Origin: Variovorax sp. V93
GTDB taxonomy: Bacteria > Pseudomonadota > Gammaproteobacteria > Burkholderiales > Burkholderiaceae_C
Length of the DNA stretch: 64,000 nucleotides
Assembly (NCBI RefSeq): GCF_041154485.1
Contig: NZ_AP028670.1
Location: forward strand, 186,001-250,000
Reading direction: 5' to 3'
Part shown: positions 28,446 to 49,397 of the stretch, piece by piece
Numbering within the stretch: position 1 is the stretch's first letter
How the letters are laid out: each line of letters starts with the position of its first letter
Made by a program: the position numbers and the translations under genes
The notes under the pieces: model-generated
Database searches by the model: none
Seen by the model: only the letters and a program-made list of their open reading frames with translations
What the model was told of the DNA's origin: nothing

Positions 28446-28925
28446 ATTCGACCGGCCGCACCTGCCTCTCGCGGAGATGCGCCGCTGCGCCGACCGCAAA
28501 AGTAACGATGACGGGGCGACACCAACTGGTCGGCGAGATAGGTACCTGAGGGCTCCGGCACGCAGAAGCCCGACCTTCGACCTAAGTCGACTATGTGGGC
28601 GAGGCGCTTCCATTTTCACAATCCGTTCGGACAACTCGTCAGCATCCCCTCGCATGCTTGCGAAGGGTGTCCAAGTGTGATGCTCCGGTATCCCAAAAAC
28701 GGGGTGCCTGCCGACACACCACACGAGGAGCAAAGCCGAAGCGGGCGAAACCAAGGCCTTGGAGCTGAAGATTGCCCCGCCACCGGCGACGACCACGCCA
28801 TCGTCCGCGCGTCTGTCACGATGTCCGCCGTGTTGTAGAACAGTTCGTCCTACAGCACGGGCGCGTCGACTGGGAGTTCGGTCATTGCCGTCACCGGCAT
28901 GGCCCAGGAATATGAAGAAGAGAGC
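28446..28925. other. 480-base gap with no recognised gene
   Basis: Between two convergent operons I see only short, low-quality open frames. One minus-strand frame (28332-28796) runs antisense to the hydrolase end and has no family resemblance. No clear terminator, repeat or RNA gene was found. The composition looks less coding-like than the flanks, which fits decayed DNA. Confidence 0.45.
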
Positions 28926-30443
28926 TCAGGCGACGCGCCGCGTCGCAGATTGTCGCACTGCGCCTTTCGGCGCCAGGGCGCGCCAGCCAATGACGCACGA
29001 CGTGATGCACAGGGCGATACCGAGCAGGGAAAGGACCAGCACCAGCGCTTCGCGCAACCAGGGCCGTTCGCGCAGCGGCTCGAAGTCGAGACTGTGCAAT
29101 CCCTGGTAGAGAAGCCGCTGCCAACGGCCCGACGGGTCGACCCGCAACAGCACCTTGCCCGAGGCAGCGTCAGCATAGAGGGCCGTGCCGTCCGGCCAAT
29201 GGGCGCGCCAGACGGGCAGCGGCCGGGTGTCCGGCGCCTCCGCCGACGCCGGGTCCTTCGCGTAGTAGACATCGTCGTAGCGATCCATCCGCGTCACGTT
29301 CGACGCGGGCTGGTCGATGCCGCGCAGGCGCCGCAGGGCGTCCGACACCAAGCCGTCCGGCAGCACCGATTCCACCGCCGGCCGGGCGTCCGCATCGTCC
29401 GCACGCACCCACCACCGGCGCTGCGTACCCTGGAGGCGGTACCAGACCTGCCCGTCGATCCGGACCCGCTCCAGTTCCAACGCCTGCGCGCCGGCCGCCC
29501 GGGACGCGACCGCGGCCAGGGCCAGCTGCGGCGCCACAGCGGCACCCCGGTCGGCGCCGAGCCAGCGGTCGCGCTCGGCGGGCGGAAGTCCCCGTGGAGA
29601 GAACACCCCGTAAGGATTCATCGACATCAGGCCCGAGAAAATCCAGGTCAGCGTGAACACCGCGGCGACCAGACCGACCATGTGGTGCCAACGCATCCAG
29701 AACTTGCGATACGGAATCCAGCGGGACCGGTTGAGAAACAACTGCCAGATGCCCAGCACCAACCCGCTCGCGGCCAGCAGCACGCCCAGAATCGAGAGCC
29801 AGACGACGACCTGGTTCCACGCCTGCGGGAACTGCCGCAGCACGGTCGGATAGATCCAGTGCGGCACGGCGCCGATCCAGTTCCAGAACCGCTCGGCGCG
29901 GCGCGTGTCGCGCACCACTTCGGCGGCCGTGCGGGACACGTACAGTTCGAGACCGTCGTCGCCATCCAGGCTGACTTTGAACAGAGGACGGTAAGGATCC
30001 AATCCTTGCGGAACCGTCCACTGGTCACGCTCGAGCGCTTCGGCCGCCAGCGCCCGCCGGCCGCTGAAGGTCTCGGCCACCTTCATGGCCTGGACGGTCG
30101 TCAGCGGCGCCTTCAGTGCACCGGTGCGGGCATCGAGCGCTTGCCATCGAGGGGGGGTCTTGTCGCCGGCATCGACCAGGAGTCGCCAGACCGGCGCCCC
30201 TTCCTCGGCCATGGCGAGGCGCGCTTCGGTGAACGCCACGCCGGCTCGCCGCGCAGCGTCTTCGGCCGTCAGGCAGCAGCCGGTGGCCGGAACCAGGGGC
30301 CGCAGTCCGGCCCGGCGCTCTGCCTGCGTGAGGTTCGGGAACGGCACGTAGTACAGCACGATGCCGCTGAGGAACCACATCAGAAACAGCAACGCCAGCG
30401 AGATGCCGAGCCACTTGTGAATGAAGATCAAGGCCGGCTTCAT
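28926..30443 (-). CDS. PepSY-associated transmembrane protein
   Basis: The 505-residue inner-membrane protein starts with MKPALIFIHKWLGISLALLFLMWFLSGIVLYY, the typical first helix of PepSY_TM proteins, and has about four membrane helices around large periplasmic PepSY-like parts. Such proteins commonly accompany TonB receptors and are thought to reduce or release metal from imported chelates. It lies 31 bases after the TonB receptor gene at the 3' end of the nitrile hydratase operon. A link to cobalt or iron-chelate uptake is inference from that position. Confidence 0.87.
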   Translation of the reverse strand: MKPALIFIHKWLGISLALLFLMWFLSGIVLYYVPFPNLTQAERRAGLRPLVPATGCCLTAEDAARRAGVAFTEARLAMAEEGAPVWRLLVDAGDKTPPRWQALDARTGALKAPLTTVQAMKVAETFSGRRALAAEALERDQWTVPQGLDPYRPLFKVSLDGDDGLELYVSRTAAEVVRDTRRAERFWNWIGAVPHWIYPTVLRQFPQAWNQVVVWLSILGVLLAASGLVLGIWQLFLNRSRWIPYRKFWMRWHHMVGLVAAVFTLTWIFSGLMSMNPYGVFSPRGLPPAERDRWLGADRGAAVAPQLALAAVASRAAGAQALELERVRIDGQVWYRLQGTQRRWWVRADDADARPAVESVLPDGLVSDALRRLRGIDQPASNVTRMDRYDDVYYAKDPASAEAPDTRPLPVWRAHWPDGTALYADAASGKVLLRVDPSGRWQRLLYQGLHSLDFEPLRERPWLREALVLVLSLLGIALCITSCVIGWRALAPKGAVRQSATRRVA

Positions 30444-30474
30444 GTCTTTTCCATCGGCTTGATTCGGACGCGCA

Positions 30475-32664
30475 TCAGAACGCCGCCCGGTAGCTGACTT
30501 CGAAGCTGCGCGGCGCGCCGATCAGGACCTGGTTGTTCGAATTCGCGCCGCTCCAGTAGGCGTAGAGCTTGTCCGTCAGGTTGCGCACACGAAACGTGAG
30601 GTCGCCCTTGGGCAGTGTCCACGTGGCATAGGCGCTGGCCGTGGTGTACCCGTTCATGCGCACCGTGTTGGCGTTGTTGGCGTAGGAGTGGCCGGTCCGG
30701 TTGACGCCCGCACCCACGCGCACGGGCCATCCGGGAATCTGGTAGTCGGCCCAGAGATTGGCGACCGTCTTCGGCACGTTGGGCGGCGTGTTTCCGGCGC
30801 GCGAAACATTCCCGGCCTCGATCAGTTGATCGAACTGCGCATCGACACGCGCCAGGTTGCCGCTCAGCGTCAGTGCACGCGTCGCCCTCCAGGCCGCAGC
30901 GAGCTCGAGGCCGCGGGCCGACTGCTTGCCGCTGTTGACGGTGAGCGTCGGGTTGCTGGAATCGCGCGACAGCACGTTGTCGAGTTCGATCTTGTAAGCC
31001 GCCACCGTGTAGTCGAGCCGCCCGTCGAAAGCCGACTGCTTGATGCCGACCTCGAGTTGCTTGCCCGTCGAGAGACTGAAGGCACTGTTGGCGGCCGAAA
31101 GCAGCAGGAGGTTGCCCGTCCCGACCGGCGCGCTCGCGTTGGTGTACTGCGCATAGACCGACGTGTCGGTGTCGATGGCGAACACCACGCCCAGCCGTCC
31201 CGACGTCGGCCTGTACTTCTGGGTGAACGACGTGAGCGCACGGGTGTTCAGGTCCACGTTCTGGCGCTGCAGCTTCACGTCGTCCTGCCGCAAGCCGCCC
31301 ACGATGGTCCAGCGGTCGCTGACGGACAAGGCGTCCTCCAGAAACAGTGAGCGGGTGGGGATCCGTGCGTCGAAGACCGTGCGGTTGCCGGCGCCGGCGT
31401 AGAGCGCCGGATTGGCGGCAAAGGCGTCGTAGCGTCCCGGGAAGGTGGCGAACTCGCCCACTGCGAGGGCAGTGTTGGCCGCGGCCGATCCATTGGAGAA
31501 ATCGCGGTTGGAAGAAAAGTCGGTCTTCGTGTATTCGAGGCCCACCACGAACCGGTTCTTCATTCCGGCGATGGGCGAGGTGTTGGTGAGGTCGAGCCGA
31601 TTCGTCAGGATCTGGTGATCGTGCGTGATGCCGACCAGGTCCCGCACGATTCGCCCGGGCGCGGCAAAGGCAAAGGACTCCGCATTGCGCCACGCCCTGT
31701 CCGCCGTGTAGTAGGACAGTTCGTTGCGCAGCTTCCATTCCGGGGCGATCTGCCAGCTCAGCTTGGCACGCGTCCAGAGGCTGCGCGCGCTCATCTGGGC
31801 ATCGTCGACGTTGTAGTTGCGAAAGGCGATGCTGCGATCGACCACCCGCCCCGACGAGTCGCTGAGGATGCCGGTCGGCTGCAGCGCAAAGGCGCGCGGC
31901 ATCAGCGGCGTCCCCTGGTACGACAGTGCGCTGTCCTTGGCGTAGTCCATCGTCAGATCGAGGACCAGGTCACGCGTCAATGCCGTGGTGAACCCCATGG
32001 TGAGGTTGTCGTACCGCTGCTTGTTGCGGTCGATGTACCCGTTGGTCTCCTGGTGGCTGTAGTCCAGCCGGAAAGCACTCGATTCGCCGACGTTGACGCC
32101 CAGGCCGACGCCGGCACGCGCCGTGCCGAAACTGCCGTAGGACAGCATGGCCTCGGCGCCCGGGTTGTTGCGGTCGGGCCGCTTGGTCACGAAATTGACG
32201 GCCGCGCCGATGGCGCCTTCGCCGTAGAGCACCGAGGCGGGGCCCTTCAGGACTTCGATGCGCTCGTAGTTCCAGGTGTCCTGCGGCCGGCTCACCATCG
32301 AGGCCACGGCCACCCGATCGCCGTCGAACAGGTAGGTGATGAAGCCGCCGGTGAAGCCGCGCGTCGATGCCACGGAGGGCGAGCCGGGTGCGCCGCCCGC
32401 GGTCATGCCCACGCTGCCGCGCAATGCCTCCTCGAACGTTCGCGCACCGCGCCGTTCCATCGTTTCCTGCGTGATCACCTCCGCCGACGCGGGCGTTTCG
32501 CGGACGCTCAGGCCCAGCCGGCTGCCGACCGCGGGCGTGGCCTGCAGCGATGGCGACTGGTCCTGCTGCGTGGCCGTCACCTCGATGGCTTGCAGGCTCG
32601 GCTGCGCCATCGCCTGGGTGCTGGCCAGGGCGATGAAGCCCGGGAATGCGATGTGTTTGAACAT
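30475..32664 (-). CDS. TonB-dependent siderophore-type outer-membrane receptor
   Basis: The 729-residue receptor begins with a signal peptide (MFKHIAFPGFIALASTQAMA, cut at AQ). A plug domain follows (SVRETPASAEVITQETMERRG, then YERIEVLKGPASVLYGEGAIG and VNFVTKRP). The last part is a beta-barrel ending in ..SYRAAF, a normal outer-membrane C-terminus. The family imports ferric siderophores or other metal chelates. It sits between the Ni/Co permease and the PepSY gene in a cobalt-enzyme operon, so it may carry a cobalt chelate. The ATG at 32664 is chosen because the signal peptide follows directly; its upstream ribosome site is weak. Confidence 0.92.
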   Translation of the reverse strand: MFKHIAFPGFIALASTQAMAQPSLQAIEVTATQQDQSPSLQATPAVGSRLGLSVRETPASAEVITQETMERRGARTFEEALRGSVGMTAGGAPGSPSVASTRGFTGGFITYLFDGDRVAVASMVSRPQDTWNYERIEVLKGPASVLYGEGAIGAAVNFVTKRPDRNNPGAEAMLSYGSFGTARAGVGLGVNVGESSAFRLDYSHQETNGYIDRNKQRYDNLTMGFTTALTRDLVLDLTMDYAKDSALSYQGTPLMPRAFALQPTGILSDSSGRVVDRSIAFRNYNVDDAQMSARSLWTRAKLSWQIAPEWKLRNELSYYTADRAWRNAESFAFAAPGRIVRDLVGITHDHQILTNRLDLTNTSPIAGMKNRFVVGLEYTKTDFSSNRDFSNGSAAANTALAVGEFATFPGRYDAFAANPALYAGAGNRTVFDARIPTRSLFLEDALSVSDRWTIVGGLRQDDVKLQRQNVDLNTRALTSFTQKYRPTSGRLGVVFAIDTDTSVYAQYTNASAPVGTGNLLLLSAANSAFSLSTGKQLEVGIKQSAFDGRLDYTVAAYKIELDNVLSRDSSNPTLTVNSGKQSARGLELAAAWRATRALTLSGNLARVDAQFDQLIEAGNVSRAGNTPPNVPKTVANLWADYQIPGWPVRVGAGVNRTGHSYANNANTVRMNGYTTASAYATWTLPKGDLTFRVRNLTDKLYAYWSGANSNNQVLIGAPRSFEVSYRAAF

Positions 32665-32740
32665 GGGGGAACCGGAGAAGAAGCAAGAGAAAACCACCGG
32701 CCCGCGGCTGCGCTGCCTGTCGGCAGCCGTCGGTTCCCCG
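32665..32740 (-). promoter_or_regulatory. folded leader before the TonB receptor gene
   Basis: In the 95-base gap after the permease gene, GGGGAACCG (plus strand 32666-32674) and CGGTTCCCC (32731-32739) form a perfect 9-base inverted repeat. One arm directly abuts the receptor start codon. Inside it is a GCTGCC-TGTC-GGCAGC hairpin. When transcribed, the outer stem would cover the start region of the receptor message. No cobalamin-riboswitch B12 box is seen. Control of translation is an inference. Confidence 0.42.
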
Positions 32741-32759
32741 ACGGGATCGCGAGGCGGCA

Positions 32760-33596
32760 TCAGGAGGTCCGTGAAGGGCGGGGTGCGGGGGCCGCTTTGG
32801 CGCTGCGTGCGCGCCTGGCACTCCACGCCCAGATCCCCAGCATCACAGCCACCAGCGCGGCGCCGGTGATTGAAAACGCCATGTCGTCGAGTTCGACTTC
32901 CGGCAGCAAGACCTTGGCCACGTTGTAGCCCGCCACGCCAAACGAGATGGCCACGACGAGCCAGCCCAGTGTCCGGCGCACGCGGCGCCCCGCTTCCGGA
33001 TTCTCGATGCCCCGGCCGATCCGGCAGATGATTCGGCCGTCCAGCGTGTCGGTCACCATCATCCCTGCCGTGAAGGTCAGCCCTGCGAGCAGGGCGGCCC
33101 ACGCGCCGCCGTTCTTGTTGCTGGCGACGTAGCCCCAGGCGGCCGCCTGCGTGGCGGTGTCGAAGACGGTGGCGAACAGCACGCCGATGACCACCACCGA
33201 CCAGGCACTTGACTGCTGGCGCAAGCGCGCAGGGATCAGGCTCATCTTCCAACCGGTCGGCGCGTAGGCCTCGTTCCTGCGCAGCAGCAGGCGCAGATTG
33301 AGGCAGCCGACCACGACCAGCAGCAAGGTCGGAATCCAATCGAAAACGGTCACCACGAAGCCCGGGGGGTCGAAGTGCAGCGCCAGCTTGCTGACGACCA
33401 CCGCGATCAGCGTGACCAGCAGGCCGTGACCCAGTGCGAACAAGGTCCCGATCCAGCCCGCATGGGCATGCGAATGATTGAGCGCGCGCCAGGTGAGGCC
33501 ATCGATGCAGGCGATATGGTCCGGATCCAGCCCGTGCCGCAACCCCAGGACAAACATCAGCAACAGCCCTGACAGGGAAAGCAACTCGGCACTCAT
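32760..33596 (-). CDS. nickel/cobalt permease (NiCoT, HoxN/NixA/NhlF family)
   Basis: The 278-residue membrane protein has the NiCoT signature in its second helix, RHGLDPDHIACID, which supplies the HX4DH metal ligands, followed by the LFALGHGLLV motif. About eight hydrophobic segments are visible. NhlF of Rhodococcus, in the same family, feeds cobalt to nitrile hydratase. This gene is 21 bases after the nitrile hydratase accessory gene, so cobalt uptake for that enzyme is the simplest role. Nickel transport cannot be excluded by sequence. Confidence 0.92.
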   Translation of the reverse strand: MSAELLSLSGLLLMFVLGLRHGLDPDHIACIDGLTWRALNHSHAHAGWIGTLFALGHGLLVTLIAVVVSKLALHFDPPGFVVTVFDWIPTLLLVVVGCLNLRLLLRRNEAYAPTGWKMSLIPARLRQQSSAWSVVVIGVLFATVFDTATQAAAWGYVASNKNGGAWAALLAGLTFTAGMMVTDTLDGRIICRIGRGIENPEAGRRVRRTLGWLVVAISFGVAGYNVAKVLLPEVELDDMAFSITGAALVAVMLGIWAWSARRARSAKAAPAPRPSRTS

Positions 33597-33617
33597 TTAC
33601 TGCTCCGCCATGGTCAT

Positions 33618-33959
33618 TCAGGCCTTCTTCGGTTGCCCGGCGACTGCCTGGGCCAGCTCGCCCGCGGTGACCACCCGATGCTGCTCGAGCACCTGCAGCA
33701 GCGCCGCCAGGAAGCGCTCGTAGTAATCCCACGGCGGCTGCGCCGCGCAGTCGAGCCGTTCCCAATCGCCGATCGATCCTATCAACTGCTGGCGGAAGTC
33801 CTCCCACTCGAAGTGGCCCTGCTTGGCCACCGCGAGCGTCAGTCCAAAAAGCTGGCGCTGCCAGTCCTGGCCGAAGTACAGCTTGCCATGGCTGCGGGGG
33901 GGAGAGTCCGCATGGCCAAGCATCTGGGCGGCCGCGTATTCCTCGAAGCGGGTGAACAT
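33618..33959 (-). CDS. nitrile hydratase accessory/activator protein (P14K-like)
   Basis: The 113-residue protein resembles the nitrile hydratase accessory family, which is related to the N-terminal part of the beta subunit: landmarks are HGKLYFGQDWQRQLFGLTLAV, then FEWEDFRQQLIGSIG and YYERFLAALLQVLEQ. Such proteins help load cobalt by subunit exchange. It lies 10 bases after nthA and 21 bases before the cobalt permease gene, the usual place in Co-type clusters. Confidence 0.9.
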   Translation of the reverse strand: MFTRFEEYAAAQMLGHADSPPRSHGKLYFGQDWQRQLFGLTLAVAKQGHFEWEDFRQQLIGSIGDWERLDCAAQPPWDYYERFLAALLQVLEQHRVVTAGELAQAVAGQPKKA

Positions 33960-33969
33960 CGCGCCGACC

Positions 33970-34602
33970 TCACGCTGCCGATGCAGGCGGCTGAACCAGC
34001 GCGACGCCCATCATCGACTCAGGTGTGACCAACGCGGCCAACTGCTCTTCGCTGAGGCCGTCAGTGTTGATGGGCCGTTCCGGCACGACGAACCAGCGGA
34101 TCTGCGCGCTGCTGTCCCACACCTTGACTTCGCTGTCCTCGCTCACCGGCACGCCGAACTCGCGCAGGACAGCCCGAGGCTCGCGCACGCCGCGGGCGCG
34201 GAACACCGGGTCCTTGTACCAGTACGGAGGCAGGCCGAGCACCGGCCACGGGTAGCAGGAACACAACGTGCAGATGATCAGGTTGTGCACGCCAGGGCCG
34301 TTGGCCACCGCGGCCATGTGCTCGCCTTCGGCGCCCTCCATGCCCTGCGGCAGCTGGAGTTCGGCGATGGCCTTGGGCGTGTTCGCCAGCAGGCGCTCCT
34401 TGTAGTCGGGGTCGGCCCACGCCCGCGCGACAATGCGTGCGCCATTGAAAGGGCCGGCGACCTTCTCGAAATGATCGAGCACCGCATCGACCGAATCGCT
34501 GGCGATCACGCCCTTCTCGATCAGCAGGGCTTCCAGTGCGCGAACCTTCGCCGCGCTCTCGGCTTCACGCTCGGCGTTGTACTTGAACAGATCGCTGCTC
34601 AT
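33970..34602 (-). CDS. nthA: nitrile hydratase alpha subunit, cobalt type
   Basis: The 210-residue subunit carries the metal-claw motif C111-T-L-C114-S-C116. Thr at the second position is the mark of cobalt enzymes (iron enzymes have Ser), so this is a Co-type nitrile hydratase that converts nitriles to amides. The flanking PWPVLGLPPYWYKDPVFRARGVREPRAVL is the classic alpha-subunit stretch. It is 15 bases after nthB and 10 before the accessory gene. The order beta-alpha-activator is that seen in Co-type clusters. The length is typical. Confidence 0.97.
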   Translation of the reverse strand: MSSDLFKYNAEREAESAAKVRALEALLIEKGVIASDSVDAVLDHFEKVAGPFNGARIVARAWADPDYKERLLANTPKAIAELQLPQGMEGAEGEHMAAVANGPGVHNLIICTLCSCYPWPVLGLPPYWYKDPVFRARGVREPRAVLREFGVPVSEDSEVKVWDSSAQIRWFVVPERPINTDGLSEEQLAALVTPESMMGVALVQPPASAA

Positions 34603-34617
34603 GATATTTCCTCTTCT

Positions 34618-35364
34618 TCAAGTGTTCGGGGATTGCAGGTAGACCTCGAAGAGGTCGGCGTAGATCGTCGTGTTCGGCTCGCACAGCTCGGGACCCCAGA
34701 TGTCTCCGGCGTCGAACGCAACGCGGTACACCGGCATCGGCGCTCCGAGCCCGTCCGGCCCGGTCGAGCAGAAGTACCCGAAGGCGCCTGGATACACCTC
34801 GCGGATGGTGCCCTTCTTGTGGCGCAGGTAGCCGGGCAGCCGCGTGTGTTCGGCGGCCGTGGGGTCGGCCACGTACACCGTTTGGCCCGCCGTGAACTGC
34901 GGCGCATGGGGCAGAGGCCGCAAACCGGAATCGCCGCGCAGCAGATAGTCGATCACCTGGCGTTTGATCGGCTCGCTGGGCCGGTCGGGCAGCGGCGCGT
35001 CCGGCTGGATGCGGTAGTGCGCAGTCATCCTGGCCAGCTCGTCGGCTGTGATGTAGCCCTTGTCGACGAAGAACTGGCTGATGCCCATCAGCCACTTCTC
35101 GTAGTAGCGGAACTTGAAGTACTCGAAGGGCTGCATGCTCTCTGCGCCAGTACGCAGCGAGGCCCAGGTCCAGGAGTCCTTGAACGAAGTTGGAAGCGTG
35201 TCGACGGGGTACTTCGGCAACGCCTCGGCGAGATGGGCGCTCTCGGCCATCATCACGGTGTGGATGCCGAAGATGCGCTTCTCCCAGTCCTGCACGAAGA
35301 CGCGGGTTTCGAGGTTGACGGGCCCGAGGTTCTCGAGACCGCCCAGCGCGTGTTGAAGTTTCAT
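34618..35364 (-). CDS. nthB: nitrile hydratase beta subunit
   Basis: The 248-residue subunit starts with MKLQHALGGLENLGPVNLE, the usual beta-subunit opening, which is why the ATG at 35364 is preferred over the one at 35394. Later landmarks are FVDKGYITADELARM, the FTAGQTVYVADP region of the SH3-like domain and LCEPNTTIYADLFEVYL near the end. It forms the alpha/beta heterodimer with NthA. It lies 34 bases after the CobW-type GTPase gene. Confidence 0.96.
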   Translation of the reverse strand: MKLQHALGGLENLGPVNLETRVFVQDWEKRIFGIHTVMMAESAHLAEALPKYPVDTLPTSFKDSWTWASLRTGAESMQPFEYFKFRYYEKWLMGISQFFVDKGYITADELARMTAHYRIQPDAPLPDRPSEPIKRQVIDYLLRGDSGLRPLPHAPQFTAGQTVYVADPTAAEHTRLPGYLRHKKGTIREVYPGAFGYFCSTGPDGLGAPMPVYRVAFDAGDIWGPELCEPNTTIYADLFEVYLQSPNT

Positions 35365-35398
35365 GGGTACTCCGGTTGGCAGATTCGAGGCCACGCCT

Positions 35399-36388
35399 TC
35401 ATGGCACTCGTTCGGATTGAGAAACGAGACAATTGAGGAAGCCTTCGCGCAGCGCGTCTACCGCCAGATCCCGGCCGATGAAGACCAGCCTGTTGCGGCG
35501 CGGCTCATCGGGGCGCCATCGACGCCCCGGCCGTGCGTCCAGCAACATGTGCACGCTGTGGAAGTGGAATTGGCGCGCCTCGCCGTGCAGGCGCAGCACG
35601 CCCTTGGTCCGCATCAACTGGGCGCCTTCGCGTTGGACCAGTTGGCTCATCCAGCGATTGAATCGCTCCGGGTCGAGGGCACCGTCGGTTTCGATACAGC
35701 ACGATCCGATCGAGGTATCGTGTTCGTGGTCGTGCTCCTCGCCATCCAGCAGATCAGGCTCGATCGATAGCACGTGCGGCAACGAGAAGCGCTTCGTCCC
35801 CAGCAGCTCAGCAGCCGAGACCTGTGCGTGTTCAGTGCGGATCAGATGCGCGGCCGGGTTCAACCGGCGCAGTTCGCGCTCGAGCCGCGCCAGTTCCTGC
35901 GGGCTGGCCATCTCGATCTTGTTGAGCACGATCACGTCGGCAAAGGCGATCTGTTCGCGCACGATGTCGTCATCGATGTGAAGCAGGACATGGCATGCAT
36001 CGGCGACGGTGACCACCGACTCGAGTTCCACACGCTCCAACAGCGCGGCGTCGGCAAGAAAGCTCTGCAGCACCGGGGCCGGGTCGGCCAGGCCGGAGGT
36101 CTCGATGATCAATCGATCGACCGGGCGGCCGGCACGCTGCAGCAGCTCGTCGACCGCTGCCGTCAGGTCCTTGCGCACGGTGCAGCAGACGCAGCCGTTG
36201 GTGATCTCGATCAGTGGCTGTTCATCGGCGACGATCAGCTGACTGTCGATGCCGACCTCGCCGAACTCGTTGACGATGATGCCGATGTAGGCATCGCCGC
36301 ACTGCGCCAGCAGATTGTTCACGAGCGTGGTCTTGCCGGCCCCGAGGAAGCCGGTGACGATCGTGACGGGGATGTTGTGGAGCGCCAT
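35399..36388 (-). CDS. CobW/COG0523 GTPase, probable metallochaperone
   Basis: The 329-residue G3E GTPase has the P-loop GFLGAGKTT (about residues 11-19), NEFGEVGID, the metal-binding NGCVCCTVRKD and a C-terminal CobW_C part near the end. COG0523 proteins deliver or insert zinc, cobalt or iron into client enzymes; relatives in nitrile hydratase clusters act as activators. Being directly upstream of nthBA, cobalt insertion into nitrile hydratase is the likely job. I chose the ATG at 36388, with AGGA upstream; an ATG at 36400 is possible. Confidence 0.9.
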   Translation of the reverse strand: MALHNIPVTIVTGFLGAGKTTLVNNLLAQCGDAYIGIIVNEFGEVGIDSQLIVADEQPLIEITNGCVCCTVRKDLTAAVDELLQRAGRPVDRLIIETSGLADPAPVLQSFLADAALLERVELESVVTVADACHVLLHIDDDIVREQIAFADVIVLNKIEMASPQELARLERELRRLNPAAHLIRTEHAQVSAAELLGTKRFSLPHVLSIEPDLLDGEEHDHEHDTSIGSCCIETDGALDPERFNRWMSQLVQREGAQLMRTKGVLRLHGEARQFHFHSVHMLLDARPGRRWRPDEPRRNRLVFIGRDLAVDALREGFLNCLVSQSERVP

Positions 36389-36422
36389 ACCGGTCCTCAT
36401 AGCCACTTGCCGTTCGTCCGGA

Positions 36423-38090
36423 CTACTGTTGCGAAGCGGTGAGTGTCGCGACCGGGCTCGGCTTCTCCGTCGGCGTCGTCGGTTCGCGCATGTCCAGGCC
36501 GCGGCGGTCACGGATGCAGAACGCGCCGACCACCAGCGTAAGCAGCGACACGACGATCGTGTAGATGAGGCCGCGGTAGATATCGCCGCTGCTCACGACC
36601 ATCGCGGTGGCGATGAACGGCGCGAAGCCGCCGATCCAGCCGTTGCCGAACTGCAGAGCCACCGAGACGCCGCTATAGCGCACCTGTGTCGGAAACTGCT
36701 CGACGAGGAAAGCGCCCATCGGACCGTACACCATGGTCGCGAGCAGGACCAGCACGAACAGCATCAGCACGACCATAGGCGCATTGACGCGCGCCGGATC
36801 GGCCGACAGCGGCATGCCGCGCTCGACCAGCACCTGGCGCAGCGCTGCTTCGTCGAAACCGGTCAGCGTCGTCTCGTCGACTACAAGCCGCAGCTCACCC
36901 GCCTGCGGCCGCAGCACATATGGCACGCCTTGCGCTGCCAGAAACGAGCGGGCGCGCGTGCACGGCTTGGTCGCCTTCGGCTGGAACAGCTGGCCGATGA
37001 AGGACTGGTCCTCGCGACAGTCGCCGCCCTGGATCACGACCTGGGTGCGGGCGCGGAACTCCTCCTGGGCGGGGTTGCCGTACTTCGCCATGCCCTGGAA
37101 AAGCGGCATGAACAGCAGCGCCGAGAGCAGGCAGCCCGTCAGCATGATCCACTTGCGCCCGATCAGGTCGGAAAGCCAGCCGAAAAACACGAAGAACGGC
37201 GTGGCCAGCACCAGGGCGATCGTGAGGTAGGCGTAGGCGGACTGCGGCGGCAGCTTGAGCGTGGCGGTGAGGAACTGCAGGCTGTAGAAGTGCGCGGTGT
37301 ACCAGATCACCGCTTGTCCAGCCACCGCACCGAAGATCGTCACCAGCACGATCCGCAGGGTGCGCGGATTGCCGAAGGTGTCCTTGATCGGGTTTTGCGA
37401 TCCCTTGCCGTGCGCCTTCATCTCGAGGAAGACAGGCGACTCCTCCAACCGCATGCGCACGTAGAGCGAGTACGCGAGAAGCCCGATCGACAAGATGAAC
37501 GGTACGCGCCATCCCCACAGGGCGAAGGACTCAGCAGATAGCGAGGAGCGCAGCATGAGGATCACGGCCAGGGAGACGAGCAGCCCGATGGTGCCGGTGA
37601 TCTGCAGCCAGCTCGTCATGAAGCCCCTGCGCCGCGGGTCTGCATGCTCGGCGATGTAGGTGACCGCGCCGCCGAACTCGCCGCCGATCGCCAGGCCCTG
37701 CAAAAGACGCAGCAGAACCAGGATTGCAGGCGCGGCCCAGCCGATGGTCTCAAACGTGGGTAGGAATCCGATCGTGGCGGTGGCGGTGCCCATGATCATC
37801 ATCGTCACAAGAAAGGTCTTCTTGCGCCCAACCAGATCGCCCAGCCGCCCGAAGACGATCGCACCGAATGGCCTCAACACGAAGCCTGCCCCGAAGGTCG
37901 CGAGCGACGCGAGGATGGCCGCCGACTCGTTGCCCTTGGGAAAGAACAGCCCGCCGAAGAACACGGCGAGGCTGCCATAGATGAAGAAGTCATACCACTC
38001 GAACACGGTGCCGAGCGCCGCGGCGAAGACCACACGGCGCGTTTCACGCGCATGCCGAGGCGTTGCGGGGGATGCATTGACTGTTGTCAT
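36423..38090 (-). CDS. MHS-family MFS transporter with a large internal loop
   Basis: The 555-residue carrier belongs to the metabolite:proton symporter (MHS) family: LGTVFEWYDFFIYGSLAVFFGGLFFP, RPFGAIVFGRLGDLVGRKKTF and GEFGGAVTYIAEH. A hydrophilic insert of about 90 residues (near residues 360-450, with Cys residues in GDCRED and TKPCTRA) separates two late helices and makes it longer than usual. It probably imports the nitrile or an acid. The ATG at 38090 has GGAG 7 bases upstream, better than the ATG at 38096. Confidence 0.88.
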   Translation of the reverse strand: MTTVNASPATPRHARETRRVVFAAALGTVFEWYDFFIYGSLAVFFGGLFFPKGNESAAILASLATFGAGFVLRPFGAIVFGRLGDLVGRKKTFLVTMMIMGTATATIGFLPTFETIGWAAPAILVLLRLLQGLAIGGEFGGAVTYIAEHADPRRRGFMTSWLQITGTIGLLVSLAVILMLRSSLSAESFALWGWRVPFILSIGLLAYSLYVRMRLEESPVFLEMKAHGKGSQNPIKDTFGNPRTLRIVLVTIFGAVAGQAVIWYTAHFYSLQFLTATLKLPPQSAYAYLTIALVLATPFFVFFGWLSDLIGRKWIMLTGCLLSALLFMPLFQGMAKYGNPAQEEFRARTQVVIQGGDCREDQSFIGQLFQPKATKPCTRARSFLAAQGVPYVLRPQAGELRLVVDETTLTGFDEAALRQVLVERGMPLSADPARVNAPMVVLMLFVLVLLATMVYGPMGAFLVEQFPTQVRYSGVSVALQFGNGWIGGFAPFIATAMVVSSGDIYRGLIYTIVVSLLTLVVGAFCIRDRRGLDMREPTTPTEKPSPVATLTASQQ

Positions 38091-38118
38091 GTCCATACTC
38101 CTTGATGTATGGCGGGCG

Positions 38119-38910
38119 TCAGGCGCCGCTCCAGTTGTCGACGCAAGCGATGAAGTCGCGCAAGATGGCATTGAAGCGCTGGGGCTGCTCGAGCATCGGG
38201 AAGTGCGCGGCACCAGCGACGAGTTGCAGTATCGCGCCGGGGATGCCGGCGGCGAGCGCATGGGACTCGGCGGGCGGCGTGATGGCATCCTCGTCGCCAC
38301 AGACGACGAGCGTCGGCAAGGCCAAGCGCGCGAGTTGCGCGCGGCTGTCGGCCTCGTTGAGCGAGATGATGGCTTCACGGGCGACGAACTCTGGCGTCTG
38401 CGCCACCTGTTCGCGCGCGAACGCCAACAGCTCGGCCGAGGCGGCGGAGCCGAACGAGCGGTCGATCACTGCCTGGCTCGCCGCTGCCACGCCCAGGCTG
38501 TCGATGGCCTGCAGCACATTCTTCACCTCTACGTCCGGGCCGAGTCCATGGGGCGTGGCGCCCACCAGCACCAATGCGCGCAAGCGGCTTCCGTGCGTGA
38601 GTGCGAAGCGCTGAGCGATCGTGCCGCCCATCGATAGCCCAACGAGAATGGCATCGTCGAGACGCAGTTTGTCGAACAGCAGTACGAGGTCATCGACGAA
38701 AGCATCGATCGTGTAGCGGCGCGTGGCCGGGGATGCCGAGCGGCCGTGCCCCGGCAGATCGAGGACCACCAATTGGTGGTCACGCGAGAACGGGGCGATC
38801 TGCTCGCGCCAGAACTCGCCGGTCGTGGTGTAGCCGTGGCAGAACACGAGGGCCGGACCGTGGCCCGCCACACGTACTTGCATGTCTCCGATAGTAATAA
38901 TGTCGTTCAT
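38119..38910 (-). CDS. alpha/beta hydrolase, first gene of the nitrile hydratase operon
   Basis: The 263-residue protein is a 3-oxoadipate enol-lactonase-like hydrolase. It has the oxyanion stretch FCHGYTTTGEFW, nucleophile elbow GLSMGG, acid in VCGDEDAITPP and His in VAGAAHFPMLEQP. It is not an amidase-signature enzyme, so whether it could hydrolyse the amide product is unclear. It is the promoter-proximal gene, about 65 bases downstream of the -24/-12 promoter, and is followed by the MHS carrier gene after 28 bases. The ATG at 38910 matches the family start. Confidence 0.88.
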   Translation of the reverse strand: MNDIITIGDMQVRVAGHGPALVFCHGYTTTGEFWREQIAPFSRDHQLVVLDLPGHGRSASPATRRYTIDAFVDDLVLLFDKLRLDDAILVGLSMGGTIAQRFALTHGSRLRALVLVGATPHGLGPDVEVKNVLQAIDSLGVAAASQAVIDRSFGSAASAELLAFAREQVAQTPEFVAREAIISLNEADSRAQLARLALPTLVVCGDEDAITPPAESHALAAGIPGAILQLVAGAAHFPMLEQPQRFNAILRDFIACVDNWSGA

Positions 38911-38975
38911 TGCATTTCCACTGAGGTGAGGGATGGAAGGCGCCACGCCGATTGCGCGCGGTGCGGACGACATAG

Positions 38976-38991
38976 AGCAAGCCTGATGCCA
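38976..38991 (-). promoter_or_regulatory. sigma-54 (-24/-12) promoter of the nitrile hydratase operon
   Basis: On the minus strand the sequence TGGCAT-CAGGC-TTGCT keeps the invariant GG and GC at the exact 10-base separation of sigma-54 promoters (consensus TGGCAC-N5-TTGCW). Transcription would start near 38963, giving a leader of about 55 bases before the hydrolase at 38910. A GAFTGA-containing activator is encoded just beyond it in the other direction. Confidence 0.75.
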
Positions 38992-39086
38992 ATCGCGCGG
39001 CGGACTCTGGCGCGCACACTAAGTCGTTGATTCCTCAGGGATAAACGCCACAGCGCCAATTGATTGACGGCGTTCCGCACATGCAC

Positions 39087-39127
39087 TAGTCTCAGATTTG
39101 CGTCCAGATTTCGCAAATTCGAGACTA
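39087..39127. promoter_or_regulatory. large dyad, candidate enhancer (UAS) of the sigma-54 activator
   Basis: TAGTCTCAGATTTGCG (39087-39102) and CGCAAATTCGAGACTA (39112-39127) are inverted copies matching at 14 of 16 bases, with a 9-base spacer. The dyad is about 145 bases upstream of the -24/-12 start site, the normal enhancer distance, and ends 3 bases before the activator's ATG. It could therefore also repress the activator's own gene. Confidence 0.66.
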
Positions 39128-39130
39128 TCC

Positions 39131-40504
39131 ATGCCCTTTCCTGAATGGTTCGGTTCCGGCCAGAACGAGGCCGAGTTCCTGCGCAGCGTGCTTGACCATG
39201 TGTCCGACTGCCTTGTGGCGGTCGACACCGATGGCCGCGTGGTGCTCATCAATGCGCCCTACTGCCGCCTGCTGGGCGGCCCCCCCGAGGACTTCATCGG
39301 CAGGCACATCACTGATGTCGTGTCGGCGAAGACGCGCCTGCATCGTGTAGCGCGCGGCGACACCACTGTGACCATGATGCCGCTGGAAGTGCGAGGCCAT
39401 CAGTTGCTCGCACGCCAAGTGCCGGTTTACCAGAACGAACGGATCATCGGCGCGGTCGGCTTGGCGCTGTTCTCGAACATGGCGGCGCTTAAGAAGGCAG
39501 TCGCCGTCGCCGGGAGCGAGGATCGCGCCATCCACAGCCCGCCCACGCCATGGACTGTGCGGTACGGGCCCGATGACATCCTGGGCCGGGGCGCCACCAT
39601 GGATGGAGTGCGCGCGGCCATCGAACGAGCCGCATCGCTGTCGCAGCCAGTGCTTGTGCAAGGGGAGACGGGCAGCGGAAAAGAACTCGCGGCCAACGCC
39701 GTCCACGCGCTATCGCCGCGCGCCCGACGGCCATTTGTTTGGGTCAACTGCGCGTCGATTCCGGAGTCGCTGATCGATGCCGAGCTCTTCGGCTACGAAG
39801 GTGGTGCGTTCACGGGCGCCCGGACGCGCGGCAAGCCAGGCAAATTCGAACTGGCGAGCGGTGGCACGCTGTTTCTCGACGAGATTGGCGACATGCCGCT
39901 CAGCCTGCAAGCCACACTTCTGCGTGCTGTGCAGAACCAGGAGATCGTGCGAGTGGGCGGCGTCTCGCCGATCCCGATCGACACGCGCGTCATCTGCGCC
40001 ACGCACCGCGATCTGCAAATGCGTGTGGATGCCGGCAAGTTCAGGGCCGACCTGTATTACCGGCTCAATGTTCTCGGCGTGCACATGCCAGCGCTGCGCG
40101 AGCGCGAGGACCTGGATTGGTTGACCGAGCAGTTGCTCGAGCGCATCGCGCAGCGAGAAGGTCTGCCGTCTCGCCGCGTGCCGCCCTCGGTACGCGCGCA
40201 ATGGCGCGCGTTCGACTGGCCGGGCAACGTGCGTCAACTTGAAGCCGCGCTCCTACGCTTCCTCATATCCGGGGACGCGGGGCTGCCGACGAGACCGGCT
40301 GCGAAGCTCTCGCGGGCCGGCACCGACCCGCGTGAGGCCTCGTCAGCGACCACCTTGCAGGAACACCTCGATCGCGAGCGCGCCGCCTGCATACGGAAAA
40401 CGCTGGCGGAGACCGTCGGCGACAAGGACGAAGCCGCACGACGGCTCGGGATCAGCCGTGCGACGCTGTACCGCGAACTTCGACACTTGCCCTCGTCGCT
40501 CTGA
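39131..40504 (+). CDS. sigma-54-dependent activator (PAS, AAA, Fis-type HTH)
   Basis: The 457-residue protein has a PAS domain at about residues 15-120 (FLRSVLDHVSDCLVAVD), then a sigma-54 interaction AAA domain with Walker A GETGSGKE, the GAFTGA loop, and Walker B GGTLFLDEIGD. A Fis-type HTH closes it (DKDEAARRLGISRATLYREL). The full GAFTGA motif means it can drive sigma-54 polymerase. It is divergent from the nitrile hydratase operon and probably activates it when the PAS domain senses a nitrile, an amide or another signal. Confidence 0.95.
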   Translation: MPFPEWFGSGQNEAEFLRSVLDHVSDCLVAVDTDGRVVLINAPYCRLLGGPPEDFIGRHITDVVSAKTRLHRVARGDTTVTMMPLEVRGHQLLARQVPVYQNERIIGAVGLALFSNMAALKKAVAVAGSEDRAIHSPPTPWTVRYGPDDILGRGATMDGVRAAIERAASLSQPVLVQGETGSGKELAANAVHALSPRARRPFVWVNCASIPESLIDAELFGYEGGAFTGARTRGKPGKFELASGGTLFLDEIGDMPLSLQATLLRAVQNQEIVRVGGVSPIPIDTRVICATHRDLQMRVDAGKFRADLYYRLNVLGVHMPALREREDLDWLTEQLLERIAQREGLPSRRVPPSVRAQWRAFDWPGNVRQLEAALLRFLISGDAGLPTRPAAKLSRAGTDPREASSATTLQEHLDRERAACIRKTLAETVGDKDEAARRLGISRATLYRELRHLPSSL

Positions 40505-40632
40505 CGGCCGGATGCCGGGGTCCGATTGCCTATTGCGTTCCGCCCATGAGCGCGGGCAGACGATGTCCAGGCGCCAACTTGCTTCCGCGCGGCCCGCTTA
40601 TGCGGGGCCTGTCTTCCAGTCCTGAACCAGGA

Positions 40633-41835
40633 CTACCCGGCTCGAATCACTGGCCCGAGAGTTCCGGTTCGAAGACTCTCCTCCACCAAGGCCGTGTCGA
40701 CGCCAAATCGCTGGCAGACGGAAACAGAGTGCTCACCGACGGACGGCGCGCGGCATCTGTCTTCGCATGGGTTCGCCACACCAGGGATCTCGGCAAGAGG
40801 AAGAGAGCCGAGCGCGCCACCATCGATCCATCGGTATGCCTGCCGGGCGAGGACATGCTCGTCGCACAGCCATTCATCATAGGTCTGCACCTTTTCCACG
40901 AGCACCCCGACTGCCTGGAGTGCAACAAGCAGATGGCCCGTTGTCCAGCTTTCGGCCAGTCGAGCGAGCTCCTGCATCAGCACACCTTCGTTGCGAACAC
41001 GATCCTCCCCCGACTTGAACCGGGCATCCCCTGCAAGGGCAGGCTCTCCCAGCACTTGGCATAGCAAGACAAAGTGTTCGCCCTTTCGGCAGGAAACAGA
41101 AACCCCGCCATCGCTCGTCGGGAGAAAACCGACCGGCCCGTAGAACGACTTGGGCTCGCCGCCACTGGCATGGAACTCGGCAATCTTGGCACCCTGAAAG
41201 GCAGCCGCCGACTGCATCAAGTTGAGGTCCAGATAGCCGCCCTCCCCCTGTTGGCGGCGCGCCGACAGTGCCGCTGAAAGCGCAGAGAACACGTACAAAC
41301 CGGTCAGGACGTCGGCAGCGACCATTCCCTGGCGGTGAGGCGTTCCGTCGGGTGTGCGATTCATCACCATCATCCCCGAGAAGCCCTGAATGAGCGAGTC
41401 AACAGTGCCCCGTTGACTGTAGGGACCGGTCTGCCCAAACCCCGACACGGACGCATAGATCACGTCCGGACGAATCGCCTTGACTGCGTCGTACGAAAAG
41501 CCGAGCCGTTCGATGACGCCGGGCCTGAAGCTCTCGATGAAGATGTCGCATTGGCTGGCAATCGTCCTTAGCACCTTTTGGCCGGACTCGCTCTTCAGGT
41601 CCAGAGCGATCGATCGCTTGCCGAGGTTGTAGTGCCACGAGTGCACGCAGTGATCGCCGCTTCGGGGCCCAAGAAGGCGTCCCCAATCGCCATCCGGCGG
41701 CTCCACCTTGACGACCTCTGCGCCATATTGAGCCAGCAGCATCGTGGCGTGTGGCCCTGCAATGCCCTGGCTCAGATCGCAAACTCGAACGCCTTCAAAG
41801 GCTCGACCAAGATCCATTCGGACACTGCCTTTCAC
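40633..41835 (-). CDS. CaiB/BaiF family (class III) CoA-transferase
   Basis: The 400-residue protein moves CoA between carboxylic acids. The N-terminus (LGRAFEGVRVCDLSQGIAGPHATMLLAQYGAEVVKVEPP) and the middle segment YASVSGFGQTGPYSQRGTVDSL, which holds the likely catalytic Asp, are diagnostic. The GTG start at 41835 has a strong GGAGG site 6 bases upstream and overlaps the dehydrogenase stop by four bases. It is the last gene of the acuR operon and should activate the acid whose CoA ester the dehydrogenase uses. A perfect 7-base hairpin (40618-40634) covers its stop. Confidence 0.92.
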   Translation of the reverse strand: MKGSVRMDLGRAFEGVRVCDLSQGIAGPHATMLLAQYGAEVVKVEPPDGDWGRLLGPRSGDHCVHSWHYNLGKRSIALDLKSESGQKVLRTIASQCDIFIESFRPGVIERLGFSYDAVKAIRPDVIYASVSGFGQTGPYSQRGTVDSLIQGFSGMMVMNRTPDGTPHRQGMVAADVLTGLYVFSALSAALSARRQQGEGGYLDLNLMQSAAAFQGAKIAEFHASGGEPKSFYGPVGFLPTSDGGVSVSCRKGEHFVLLCQVLGEPALAGDARFKSGEDRVRNEGVLMQELARLAESWTTGHLLVALQAVGVLVEKVQTYDEWLCDEHVLARQAYRWIDGGALGSLPLAEIPGVANPCEDRCRAPSVGEHSVSVCQRFGVDTALVEESLRTGTLGPVIRAG

Positions 41836-43645: not shown

Positions 43646-44611
43646 TTACTCGTCGGCTTTGAGCACGCCCTTGTCGATGAGCATCTGCGCGGCCCGGTGG
43701 TCGGCCCGCGCCCGCTCAATGAATCGCGATCGATCGGTCGCAAGCACCACAAAGCTCGCGTCCTCGAGTTGCTTCTTGACCGCGGGCTGCTCCAACCCCC
43801 GTCGGACAGCCAGGGCGATGCGCTCCGTCACCGCCTTGGGCGTGCCCTTGGGAGCGACCAGGCCCACCCATATCGTTGATTCGTAGCCCGGGACCACGGT
43901 GCTCAGCGGCGGCACGCCGGGCAGCGCTGGAAGGGGCTGAGCCGATCCCACGGCGATCGCGTTGACCCTTTTTGCCTGAATCAAAGGCAAAAGCGCCGGG
44001 ACCGAGGCAAGGACCACGTCAATCTGCCCTCCAGCGAGCGCCGTGAACGCAGGCGCCGCCCCCGAGAATGGCACATAAGTGACGCGCGAGCCGAGTGCCT
44101 GGTTCAGCAGCTCAGGTTTCAGCATGCTCGCCGCACCAGGTCCGGGTACTGCCTGGTTGATCTGCTCCGGCCTTGCCTTCAAGGCAGCGATGTACTTCGC
44201 AAGCGTGTCATAGCCCGATTGGAGCGAGGTTGCCAGGACCGTTGGCGACTGACCCAGCAGCGATATGTACTCGAACGAATCGAATGCGTCGAACTTGTAG
44301 TTCTTGTTGAAAAGATTGGCCGTCGCGTGGGTCTCATAGACCATGGACAGCGTGTACCCGTCCGCCTTGGCTCGCGCCACTTCGCCAGCGGCAATGTTGC
44401 CTCCGGCTCCGGCCTTGTTTTCGACAACGATCGGCTGACCCAACTCCTGCCCCAAAGGGCCGCTGATCACCCGTGCAACGAGATCGACAGGCCCGCCAGG
44501 CGGGAAGGGCACTACCAGCCGGACCGGCGCCGAGGGATACACATCTGCATGGGCCGAAACCAGGCCCGCGACCAAAGGCAACACGGCCGCAATCAACTTG
44601 GCTGGGGACAT
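43646..44611 (-). CDS. Bug/TctC-type substrate-binding protein
   Basis: The 321-residue periplasmic protein has a signal peptide ending at SAHAD and the Bug landmarks APVRLVVPFPPGGPVDLVARV, IVVENKAGAGGNIAAGEVARAK and GLVAPKGTPKAV. It is the closest relative of the protein at 44749, which looks like a tandem duplicate. No TctAB genes are present. The pair suggests that the operon handles an imported acid, with two receptors of differing specificity. Confidence 0.93.
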   Translation of the reverse strand: MSPAKLIAAVLPLVAGLVSAHADVYPSAPVRLVVPFPPGGPVDLVARVISGPLGQELGQPIVVENKAGAGGNIAAGEVARAKADGYTLSMVYETHATANLFNKNYKFDAFDSFEYISLLGQSPTVLATSLQSGYDTLAKYIAALKARPEQINQAVPGPGAASMLKPELLNQALGSRVTYVPFSGAAPAFTALAGGQIDVVLASVPALLPLIQAKRVNAIAVGSAQPLPALPGVPPLSTVVPGYESTIWVGLVAPKGTPKAVTERIALAVRRGLEQPAVKKQLEDASFVVLATDRSRFIERARADHRAAQMLIDKGVLKADE

Positions 44612-44748
44612 TCGATTCTCCTTGTTGTCTCCTAGGGGAACAGGAACTGTTGAGGCGGCCATTCAGCGGGCGGACATCCCAAAGCACGTCACGCCGAAGA
44701 TGAGCGAAACCAGCTCCTACTGCGCCGCCTCTGCCGCAGAGGCAAGCA

Positions 44749-45717
44749 TTACTCTTCGGGCTTGAGAATTCCCTTCTGGACCAGTTGCTCCGCGTCCCGA
44801 AAGTCCGCCCGGGCACGATCGATGAAGCCGTTCTGATCGGTCGCGAGGACGACAAACGTCGATGCCTCGAGCTGCTTTCGGACGGCGTCACTCGCCATCA
44901 CTTTCTGCACGGCCCCCTGAAGACGATCGAACACGTCCTTGGGCAGTCCCGCAGGTGCCACGATGCCAATCCACGCCGTCGACTCGAAGTTGGGGATACT
45001 GCTGTTCATGGTGGGAACGCCCGGCAGCGCGGGCAGCGGCTTGGCCGATCCAACGGCGACCGCATTGACTTTCTTGGCCTGTATCAAGGGCAAGGCCGCA
45101 GTAACCGAGACCAGCGCGATGTCGATCTGCCCACCGACCAGTGCCTGCATCGCCGGCGCGACGCCCGGATACGGAACGTAGGTCACCTTGGTGCCCAGCG
45201 CCTGATGCATCAGTTCCGGCTTCAGAACGCTCGCTGCGCCAGGACCGGTAACTACTTGGTTGAGCGCGCCGGGCTTGCTCTTCAACGCAGCGATCAGCTT
45301 CGGGAAGGTGTCCAGGCCTGACTGCGTTGATGTCGTGAGCACCAGTGGCGAGTAGCCGAGCAGAGAGATGTGGTCGAAGGACTTGAAGGCGTCGAACTTG
45401 AAATTCTTGTAGAACAGATTGGTCGTTGCATGGGTCTCGTAAACCAGCGACAGCGTATAGCCATCAGGCTTCGCGCGAGACACCTCATTGGCAGCGACAT
45501 TTCCGCCTGCTCCCGCCTTGTTCTCGATGACGATAGCCTGACCCAGCTCCTGACCAAGCGGCACACTGACGACCCGCGCCACGAAGTCGACGGGCCCTCC
45601 TGGCGGGTAGGGAACGACAAGTCTGATCGGGGCATTGGGATAGCCGCTGGCCTGCGCTGCCCCCATCGCAAGGAGCATGAAAGCACCTGCGGCAAGACTC
45701 GACTTCTTGACTGACAT
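44749..45717 (-). CDS. Bug/TctC-type substrate-binding protein
   Basis: The 322-residue protein has a signal peptide ending near AQASG and the same landmarks as its neighbour: APIRLVVPYPPGGPVDFVARVV, IVIENKAGAGGNVAANEVSRAK and GIVAPAGLPKDVF. The high likeness and adjacent position point to recent tandem duplication with the 43646 gene; they are 137 bases apart. It follows the TPP enzyme gene by 30 bases in the same operon. Confidence 0.93.
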   Translation of the reverse strand: MSVKKSSLAAGAFMLLAMGAAQASGYPNAPIRLVVPYPPGGPVDFVARVVSVPLGQELGQAIVIENKAGAGGNVAANEVSRAKPDGYTLSLVYETHATTNLFYKNFKFDAFKSFDHISLLGYSPLVLTTSTQSGLDTFPKLIAALKSKPGALNQVVTGPGAASVLKPELMHQALGTKVTYVPYPGVAPAMQALVGGQIDIALVSVTAALPLIQAKKVNAVAVGSAKPLPALPGVPTMNSSIPNFESTAWIGIVAPAGLPKDVFDRLQGAVQKVMASDAVRKQLEASTFVVLATDQNGFIDRARADFRDAEQLVQKGILKPEE

Positions 45718-49330: not shown

Positions 49331-49360
49331 TTGACACAATGTGTCCTTGGATTTCATACT
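49331..49360 (+). promoter_or_regulatory. promoter with embedded GACACA-A-TGTGTC operator
   Basis: A TTGACA -35 (49331-49336) and CATACT -10 (49355-49360) are 18 bases apart, 38 bases before the 49398 gene. A perfect palindrome GACACAATGTGTC at 49333-49345 overlaps the -35 and spacer, so a repressor bound there would block polymerase. The same core, GACAC-N3-GTGTC, is at 55217-55229. Confidence 0.6.
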
Positions 49361-49397
49361 GCCCACACCCTCCTCGACTCAGCTGAAGGAAGCCCGA

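Follow-up and report, generated by a model that had tools for sequence, protein, structure and literature searches.

A candidate sigma-54 switch with tandem GTCTC-N6-GAGAC sites beside a hydrolase, transporter and nitrile hydratase gene string in Variovorax

Nitrile hydratases are important for industry and for breaking down nitrile pesticides. A review describes their induction as amide/urea-, metal- or nitrogen-controlled (PMC11573777). Two described systems are closest to the locus analyzed here. In Pseudomonas, NitA regulates the nit1C nitrilase cluster (PMC11049912). As in our locus, the gene of this Fis-family, sigma-54-type regulator is divergent from a nitrile-hydrolyzing cluster, but nit1C encodes a nitrilase and has different partner genes, whereas the Variovorax locus has a predicted nitrile hydratase. 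Among the listed matches of the ten proteins scanned here, no nitrilase family appeared, which sets the locus apart from nit1C. In Ensifer adhaerens CGMCC 6315, NtrC is reported to control nitrile hydratase (Jiang et al. 2023, as described in the reviews PMC11573777 and PMC13243292). There too, a nitrile hydratase stands under a sigma-54-class activator, but NtrC is a global nitrogen regulator and the gene order is alpha-beta-activator (PMC11573777), whereas our locus has its own linked activator and the order beta-alpha-accessory after a hydrolase and an MFS transporter. Additionally, a Xylella study includes a nitrile hydratase activator gene among those under negative RpoN control (PMC3224663), and a thiocyanate study places a sigma-54 regulator beside the operon of another enzyme (PMC5744179).

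Control of nitrile hydratase by a sigma-54-class activator is thus not wholly new, given the reports on NtrC in Ensifer and on NitA for nitrilase clusters. A previous reading of the DNA letters without database searches (the sequence-only reading) had not counted such control among the usual properties of these clusters. This agrees with the many hydratase clusters that lack the activator (see below), but has to be qualified by the NtrC report (PMC11573777). No dedicated sigma-54 activator of nitrile hydratase was found in the open-licence literature searched, among the matches listed. One-component PAS/AAA+ sigma-54 activators of catabolic operons are a known kind of regulator. The Variovorax activator resembles them in domain order, divergent layout and upstream sites, and differs by its site, GTCTC-N6-GAGAC, for which we know of no named owner, and by NCBIfam scores below the cut-offs of the families listed. 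A dedicated activator with its own site as a private nitrile hydratase switch appears unreported, although the kind of switch is well known. Here we present the evidence that the locus probably encodes a dedicated one-component sigma-54 switch for a hydrolase, MFS and nitrile hydratase gene string.

The activator gene and the intergenic gap of Variovorax sp. V93

The window, i.e., the whole 64-kb stretch that we analyzed of NZ_AP028670.1, the second contig of the genome, harbors a 220-base gap between the activator gene and the leftward gene string, with the following features.

38991 to 38976, minus strand: sigma-54 -24/-12 promoter box TGGCATCAGGCTTGCT, predicted from a sequence match and the GG-N10-GC core in relatives
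39064 to 39092, plus strand: TTGACG-N17-TAGTCT, a sigma-70-like motif and possible promoter for the activator gene, seen by eye and conserved in the genus
39087 to 39102 and 39112 to 39127, no strand: arms of a 14/16 inverted repeat that spans both dyads (repeat search)
39089 to 39104, no strand: predicted upstream activator site, first dyad GTCTC-agattt-GCGTC (comparison with relatives)
39110 to 39125, no strand: second dyad of the predicted upstream activator sites, TTCGC-aaattc-GAGAC, at a spacing of 21 bp (comparison with relatives)
39131 to 40504, plus strand: activator with PAS, AAA+ (GAFTGA) and Fis-type HTH domains (Pfam, motif)

An AAA activator with a GAFTGA motif had been proposed at 39131, and the domain analysis bears this out. 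The protein scored 217.6 bits for Sigma54_activat (PF00158, cut-off 20.2) and 34.7 bits for the Fis-type HTH (PF02954, cut-off 22), and it carries the GAFTGA loop as well as the nucleotide-binding motif GETGSGKE; one of 13 aligned activators, its own sequence included, has GSFTGA instead. Furthermore, rpoN is represented by one PF04552 match in the genome (6.74 Mb). The AAA+ domain, the GAFTGA loop, the HTH and rpoN thus place the protein among the sigma-54 enhancer-binding activators, its promoter and upstream sites being recognized by sequence and conservation. No receiver domain was present among its Pfam matches, which, together with the PAS domain, points to a one-component sensor. The protein remained below the NCBIfam cut-off for all of the best 25 of 32 families listed (e.g., PrpR, 315.6 of 499.2 bits).

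The putative promoter box, TGGCAT-CAGGC-TTGCT, differs from TGGCAC-N5-TTGCW by one mismatch and ends 65 bases before the ATG of the hydrolase gene (38910). Its score was equaled by 2 of 2,000 dinucleotide shuffles of the gap on the box strand. The exact spacing, the minus strand and the distance to the first gene, all put forward in the sequence-only reading, were retained, and transcription would be predicted to start near 38965. Boxes with up to two mismatches were not enriched in the window (28 found versus 36.3 expected from shuffles), and the case for the promoter consequently depends on position and conservation.

Sites with up to three mismatches to the NtrC consensus TGCACY-N5-GGTGCA occurred 121 times in the window (144.6 expected), none of them in 38911-39130. 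For this reason we rejected the possibility that NtrC drives the sigma-54 promoter under nitrogen limitation while the local activator regulates something else. The Ensifer reports (PMC11573777 and PMC13243292) provide a precedent for it, but the gap lies beside a divergent activator with conserved sites of its own, and we consider it very unlikely.

The 14/16 inverted repeat at 39087-39127, already noticed from the letters, is the only one in the window (arms of 16, spacer of 0 to 20), and none of 300 base-shuffled gaps held such a repeat. Its proposed role as a distant enhancer dyad stood in part: a site lies upstream of the promoter in all 17 loci compared below, but instead of a single 41-bp repeat we probably have a tandem of two 16-bp sites of the form GTCTC-N6-GAGAC, at a distance of 21 bp. 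The window's own dyads are degenerate, each with three of the five half-site bases symmetric, and no other pair in the four loci of the genus departs as far from the motif (four mismatches versus two); the tandem reading was therefore taken from relatives. Over the 37 bases, the congeners have GTCTC-N6-GAGTC-N5-GTCGC-N6-GAGAC, and an example pair from rhizobia reads GTCAC-N6-GAGAC-N7-GTCTC-N6-GAGAC. A second, loose pair occurs in the window at 23776 (spacing 22, four mismatches in total).

The possible promoter of the activator gene was not found by the promoter scan. Its TTGACG/TAGTCT motif is present in 4/4 loci of the genus, with N17 in three and N18 in one, and its -10 box overlaps a half-site of the first dyad. 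This overlap suggests self-repression, by which the activator may limit its own synthesis.

Tandem sites and promoter cores in related loci

We compared 17 loci, namely, the window, three congeners, ten rhizobial plasmids and three held-out loci from another genus of the phylum. Tandem pairs (spacing 21 to 23, at most four mismatches in total) were found in 14/14 gaps of the window, the congeners and the plasmids, and none of 2,000 shuffles reached the pair score in any of these gaps, the motif having been derived from the same 14. Four of the rhizobial loci (L091, L098, L099 and L100) are nearly identical, so that the independent number is smaller than 14. The three held-out loci are a cleaner test of the tandem site than the 14 defining gaps. 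Each of them contained one pair in 17 to 20 kb, located at the activator start with a spacing of 20. As this falls outside the initial 21 to 23, the range was widened to 19 to 24 for the shuffles, and in each held-out gap none of 2,000 reached the pair score. By way of background, the loci of 80 other, distant activators (1.28 Mb; 30 to 49% identity in the best segment, recovered in the contig scan with the activator) gave 3 pairs at spacing 21 to 23 and 10 at spacing 19 to 24.

The tandem pattern of the genus (at most three mismatches) occurred once in each of its four genomes with the activator and was absent from a genome of the same species that lacks the activator (G401); the reversed control gave one match in total. 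Single GTCTC-N6-GAGAC sites (at most one mismatch) were, in whole genomes, at most slightly more frequent than in the reversed control (56/45 in G000, 66/59 in G478, 52/53 in G435 and 71/62 in G427), and only the tandem pair is thus informative.

As for the promoter, TGGC-N8-TGC was present in 10/10 plasmid gaps and was equaled by 12 to 50 of 2,000 shuffles. The congener box, GGGCCT-N5-TTGCT, has three mismatches, and 155 to 210 of 2,000 shuffles were as good, so that the box alone would not convince. The held-out boxes, with three mismatches each (65 to 153 of 2,000 shuffles as good), keep GG-N10-GC and TTGC. Related genomes had been suggested earlier as the place to look for the same promoter and dyad; across the 17 loci, every corresponding gap has both the tandem pair and the GG-N10-GC core. 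The box and the repeat might have been chance matches in a GC-rich gap: boxes with up to two mismatches are no commoner in the window than in shuffles, and the congener and held-out boxes are individually unremarkable. Against this, the same arrangement recurs in 17/17 loci, three of them held out, and on account of this conservation we rejected an explanation that we find barely credible.

The gene string and its link to nitrile hydratase

Leftward of the gap, the window contains the following genes.

38119 to 38910, minus strand: alpha/beta hydrolase, first gene, esterase/enol-lactonase-like (sequence resemblance)
36423 to 38096, minus strand: MFS transporter, metabolite:H+ symporter-like, below the NCBIfam cut-off
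35399 to 36400, minus strand: CobW-type GTPase, probable metal chaperone; alternative start 36388
34618 to 35394, minus strand: nitrile hydratase beta; alternative ATG start 35364
33970 to 34602, minus strand: nitrile hydratase alpha, with a CTLCSC motif
33618 to 33959, minus strand: nitrile hydratase accessory protein (NCBIfam)
32760 to 33596, minus strand: NicO-family nickel/cobalt transporter
30475 to 32664, minus strand: TonB-dependent receptor, operon membership uncertain
28926 to 30443, minus strand: PepSY-associated TM protein, operon membership uncertain

The sequence-only reading had called this a nitrile hydratase operon. The hydratase does belong to the gene string, but the first gene encodes the alpha/beta hydrolase, and nitrile hydratase beta comes fourth, about 3.5 kb downstream. 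For the hydrolase, none of the best 25 of 35 NCBIfam families listed reached its cut-off. The alpha, beta and accessory proteins exceeded theirs (286.4 of 249.85, 216 of 152.2 and 51.4 of 46 bits, respectively), and the alpha subunit carries CTLCSC, which we take to be the cobalt-type metal motif of nitrile hydratase; with these scores and this motif, a cobalt-type enzyme is predicted. The end of the hydrolase gene (38119) lies close to the MFS start (38096), and 22 or 34 bases separate MFS from CobW, depending on the start chosen. Speaking against a single long transcript, pattern matching in 28500-40700 yielded 13 terminator-like sites where 6.6 were expected. All but one are on the operon strand; the majority are intragenic, and a weak one lies between the NicO and TonB genes (32709-32692).

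The activator was found in 4/101 genomes of the genus, own included. The three congeners have the same gene order through NicO, with short gaps, and the stops flagged in their matches sit at gene ends. TonB and PepSY matches follow NicO in two of them, and the third (G435, locus L105) showed neither in the 4 kb after NicO. Among 72,556 plasmid records, the activator was present in 10 (E up to 1e-100) and the hydrolase (E up to 1e-30) only in those same 10, divergent from the activator and followed by the MFS gene. In a phylum sample, 2/398 genomes harbored the activator, own included, and the genus of the other one had it in 3/89 genomes, which provided the held-out loci. It was also detected in 5/299 genomes of a family sample (E up to 1e-80; own and four at 41 to 43% identity), in only our own of the 399 genomes of an order sample (at 1e-110) and in 0/58 genomes of a second genus of the order; in viral contigs, no hydrolase or MFS relative was found. 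In Rhizobium sullae (L095), tblastn matched the activator over its full length, but the annotation begins 357 bases further on, so its start or frame is misannotated or damaged. Hydrolase and MFS transporter are linked to the activator in 17/17 loci. The constant unit with the activator is therefore hydrolase plus MFS transporter, and not nitrile hydratase.

The hydratase is nevertheless closely associated with this unit. A relative of nthB (E up to 1e-20) was found on 9/10 activator plasmids, hydratase beta not being found on that of Mesorhizobium amorphae. In the genus, nthB relatives occur in 6/101 genomes, four of them activator-bearing (83 to 100% identity) and two with distant relatives (33%), so that activator and close hydratase are present in the same 4/101 genomes. 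The same-species genome G401 gave no match to the activator or to hydratase beta, and the cluster thus looks accessory. Conversely, nthB relatives (E up to 1e-5) are present on 135/72,556 plasmids, at least 125 of which are without the activator at the thresholds used. In a genome of the family (G039), CobW, nthB, nthA and accessory genes have 64 to 83% identity to ours, and no activator, hydrolase or MFS match was found in the 19.9 kb analyzed. A cobalt nitrile hydratase cluster on a Paraburkholderia graminis plasmid likewise shares CobW, nthB, nthA, an accessory protein and a NixA-type transporter with our locus but has no match to the activator, the hydrolase or this MFS in 24.8 kb; there, a GlxA regulator follows. 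Overall, the association between activator and hydratase is strong, and neither half needs the other.

The arrangement of the hydratase genes varies. They are distal in the gene string of the window and the three congeners, and linked but differently arranged elsewhere. The held-out loci keep the gene order from activator, hydrolase and MFS through CobW, hydratase and accessory protein to NicO, MFS and CobW being set apart by a gap. In some lineages about 640 bases separate MFS from CobW, and in L125 the interval between them holds a GlxA-like frame (by eye). On the plasmid of Bosea sp. 685 (L093), the hydratase block lies on the opposite side of the activator, pointing towards it, and the 18-kb locus contains no second tandem pair and no box within two mismatches. 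Three plasmids, from Rhizobium CB3060, Sinorhizobium alkalisoli and Agrobacterium pusense, contain a second pair with a sigma-54-like box, flanked by a chemotaxis gene on one side and an AraC/HTH regulator gene on the other. Behind the regulator, CB3060 and S. alkalisoli have CobW, DUF1097, nthB, nthA and accessory genes; the S. alkalisoli regulator is an unlisted open frame that looks AraC-like by eye. The pair of A. pusense is the weakest (four mismatches); there, an IS30 gene follows and the hydratase is about 130 kb away.

These second pairs bear on the idea that the dyad is an operator or RNA structure serving only the self-control of the activator gene, with no role at the leftward promoter. 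In its favor, only a few bases separate the dyad from the activator ATG, and the conserved TTGACG-N17/18-TAGTCT overlaps it. But a pair with a sigma-54-like box precedes another gene in three plasmids, and we rejected the idea for this reason. No Rfam family reached the gathering score in the window or in seven loci, hence no cobalamin riboswitch was seen, and no terminator-like site was found in the dyad region. All this makes a purely autoregulatory dyad highly improbable.

The activator could instead govern hydrolase and MFS only, the hydratase block being a mere neighbor with its own promoter or a GlxA/AraC regulator. Consistent with this are the constancy of hydrolase and MFS in 17/17 loci, the separation of MFS and CobW in some lineages, the Bosea arrangement, the excess of terminator-like sites on the operon strand over shuffles, and annotated GlxA-family genes next to hydratase clusters, some on plasmids that also carry the activator and some with no match to it nearby. 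However, the genes are closely spaced in the window and the three congeners, and 28500-40700 contains no sigma-70-like site according to the promoter scan (1.3 expected). Furthermore, activator and hydratase co-occur in the genus and on the plasmids, and a second site pair precedes the regulator gene and hydratase block in CB3060 and S. alkalisoli. We consider a mere neighbor unlikely, although the strongest of the alternatives. The earlier view that the activator turns on cobalt nitrile hydratase, its chaperone and metal uptake as one unit thus fits the close gene string of the window and three congeners, but it is too narrow for the constant unit and too broad for loci in which the hydratase is separate or, as in M. 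amorphae, was not found.

Regulator genes of the GlxA family or AraC type are repeatedly found next to hydratase clusters, whether or not the activator is present (L090, L108, L110 and L125, the last two by eye). CbtA/CbtB genes stand beside the hydratase accessory gene in the rhizobial blocks of L091, L095, L098, L099 and L108, where the window has NicO; cobalt uptake is probably served by different genes at this position.

The proposed switch and its possible substrates

We thus hypothesize that the activator of the gene string is a dedicated sigma-54 switch working as follows. The activator would bind the two GTCTC-N6-GAGAC dyads that lie in tandem next to the start codon of its own gene. 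Once its PAS domain meets an inducer, it would contact sigma-54 RNA polymerase at 38976-38991, about 140 bases away, and this contact would open transcription leftward. One transcript would then cover hydrolase, MFS, CobW, nitrile hydratase beta and alpha, accessory protein and NicO, and perhaps the TonB receptor and PepSY protein. Through the sites overlapping its possible promoter, the activator would perhaps limit its own synthesis.

A broader hypothesis, which in our judgment stands evenly balanced, is that this undescribed PAS-type activator family and its tandem sites constitute a transferable nitrile-response regulon of the Variovorax lineage, rhizobial plasmids and another genus of the phylum. 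The hydrolase and the MFS importer would form its core. Cobalt nitrile hydratase and cobalt uptake would be attached to this core either as part of a single operon or through a second promoter that carries such sites, and the PAS domain would sense a nitrile, its amide or the hydrolase product. If the switch is as proposed, its defined site would be a direct route to the natural inducer, and hence to the natural substrate, and would serve for building inducible expression. The constancy of hydrolase and transporter suggests import and hydrolysis of the natural substrate, in addition to hydration of a nitrile. As candidates, beta-cyanoalanine or legume nitriles are speculation on our part.

Several neighboring genes were also noted. 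In the window, three frames resembling Bug-type tripartite tricarboxylate substrate-binding proteins (43646-45717 and 49341-50381, by eye) lie near CoA-transferase-like and acyl-CoA dehydrogenase-like frames. An agmatinase gene adjoins the cassette on the Bosea sp. 685 plasmid. On the S. alkalisoli, A. pusense and Rhizobium CB3060 plasmids (L094, L096 and L097), acetate-CoA ligase and methyl-accepting chemotaxis genes flank the cassette, and the compound might thus be one that is sensed by chemotaxis and yields acetate.
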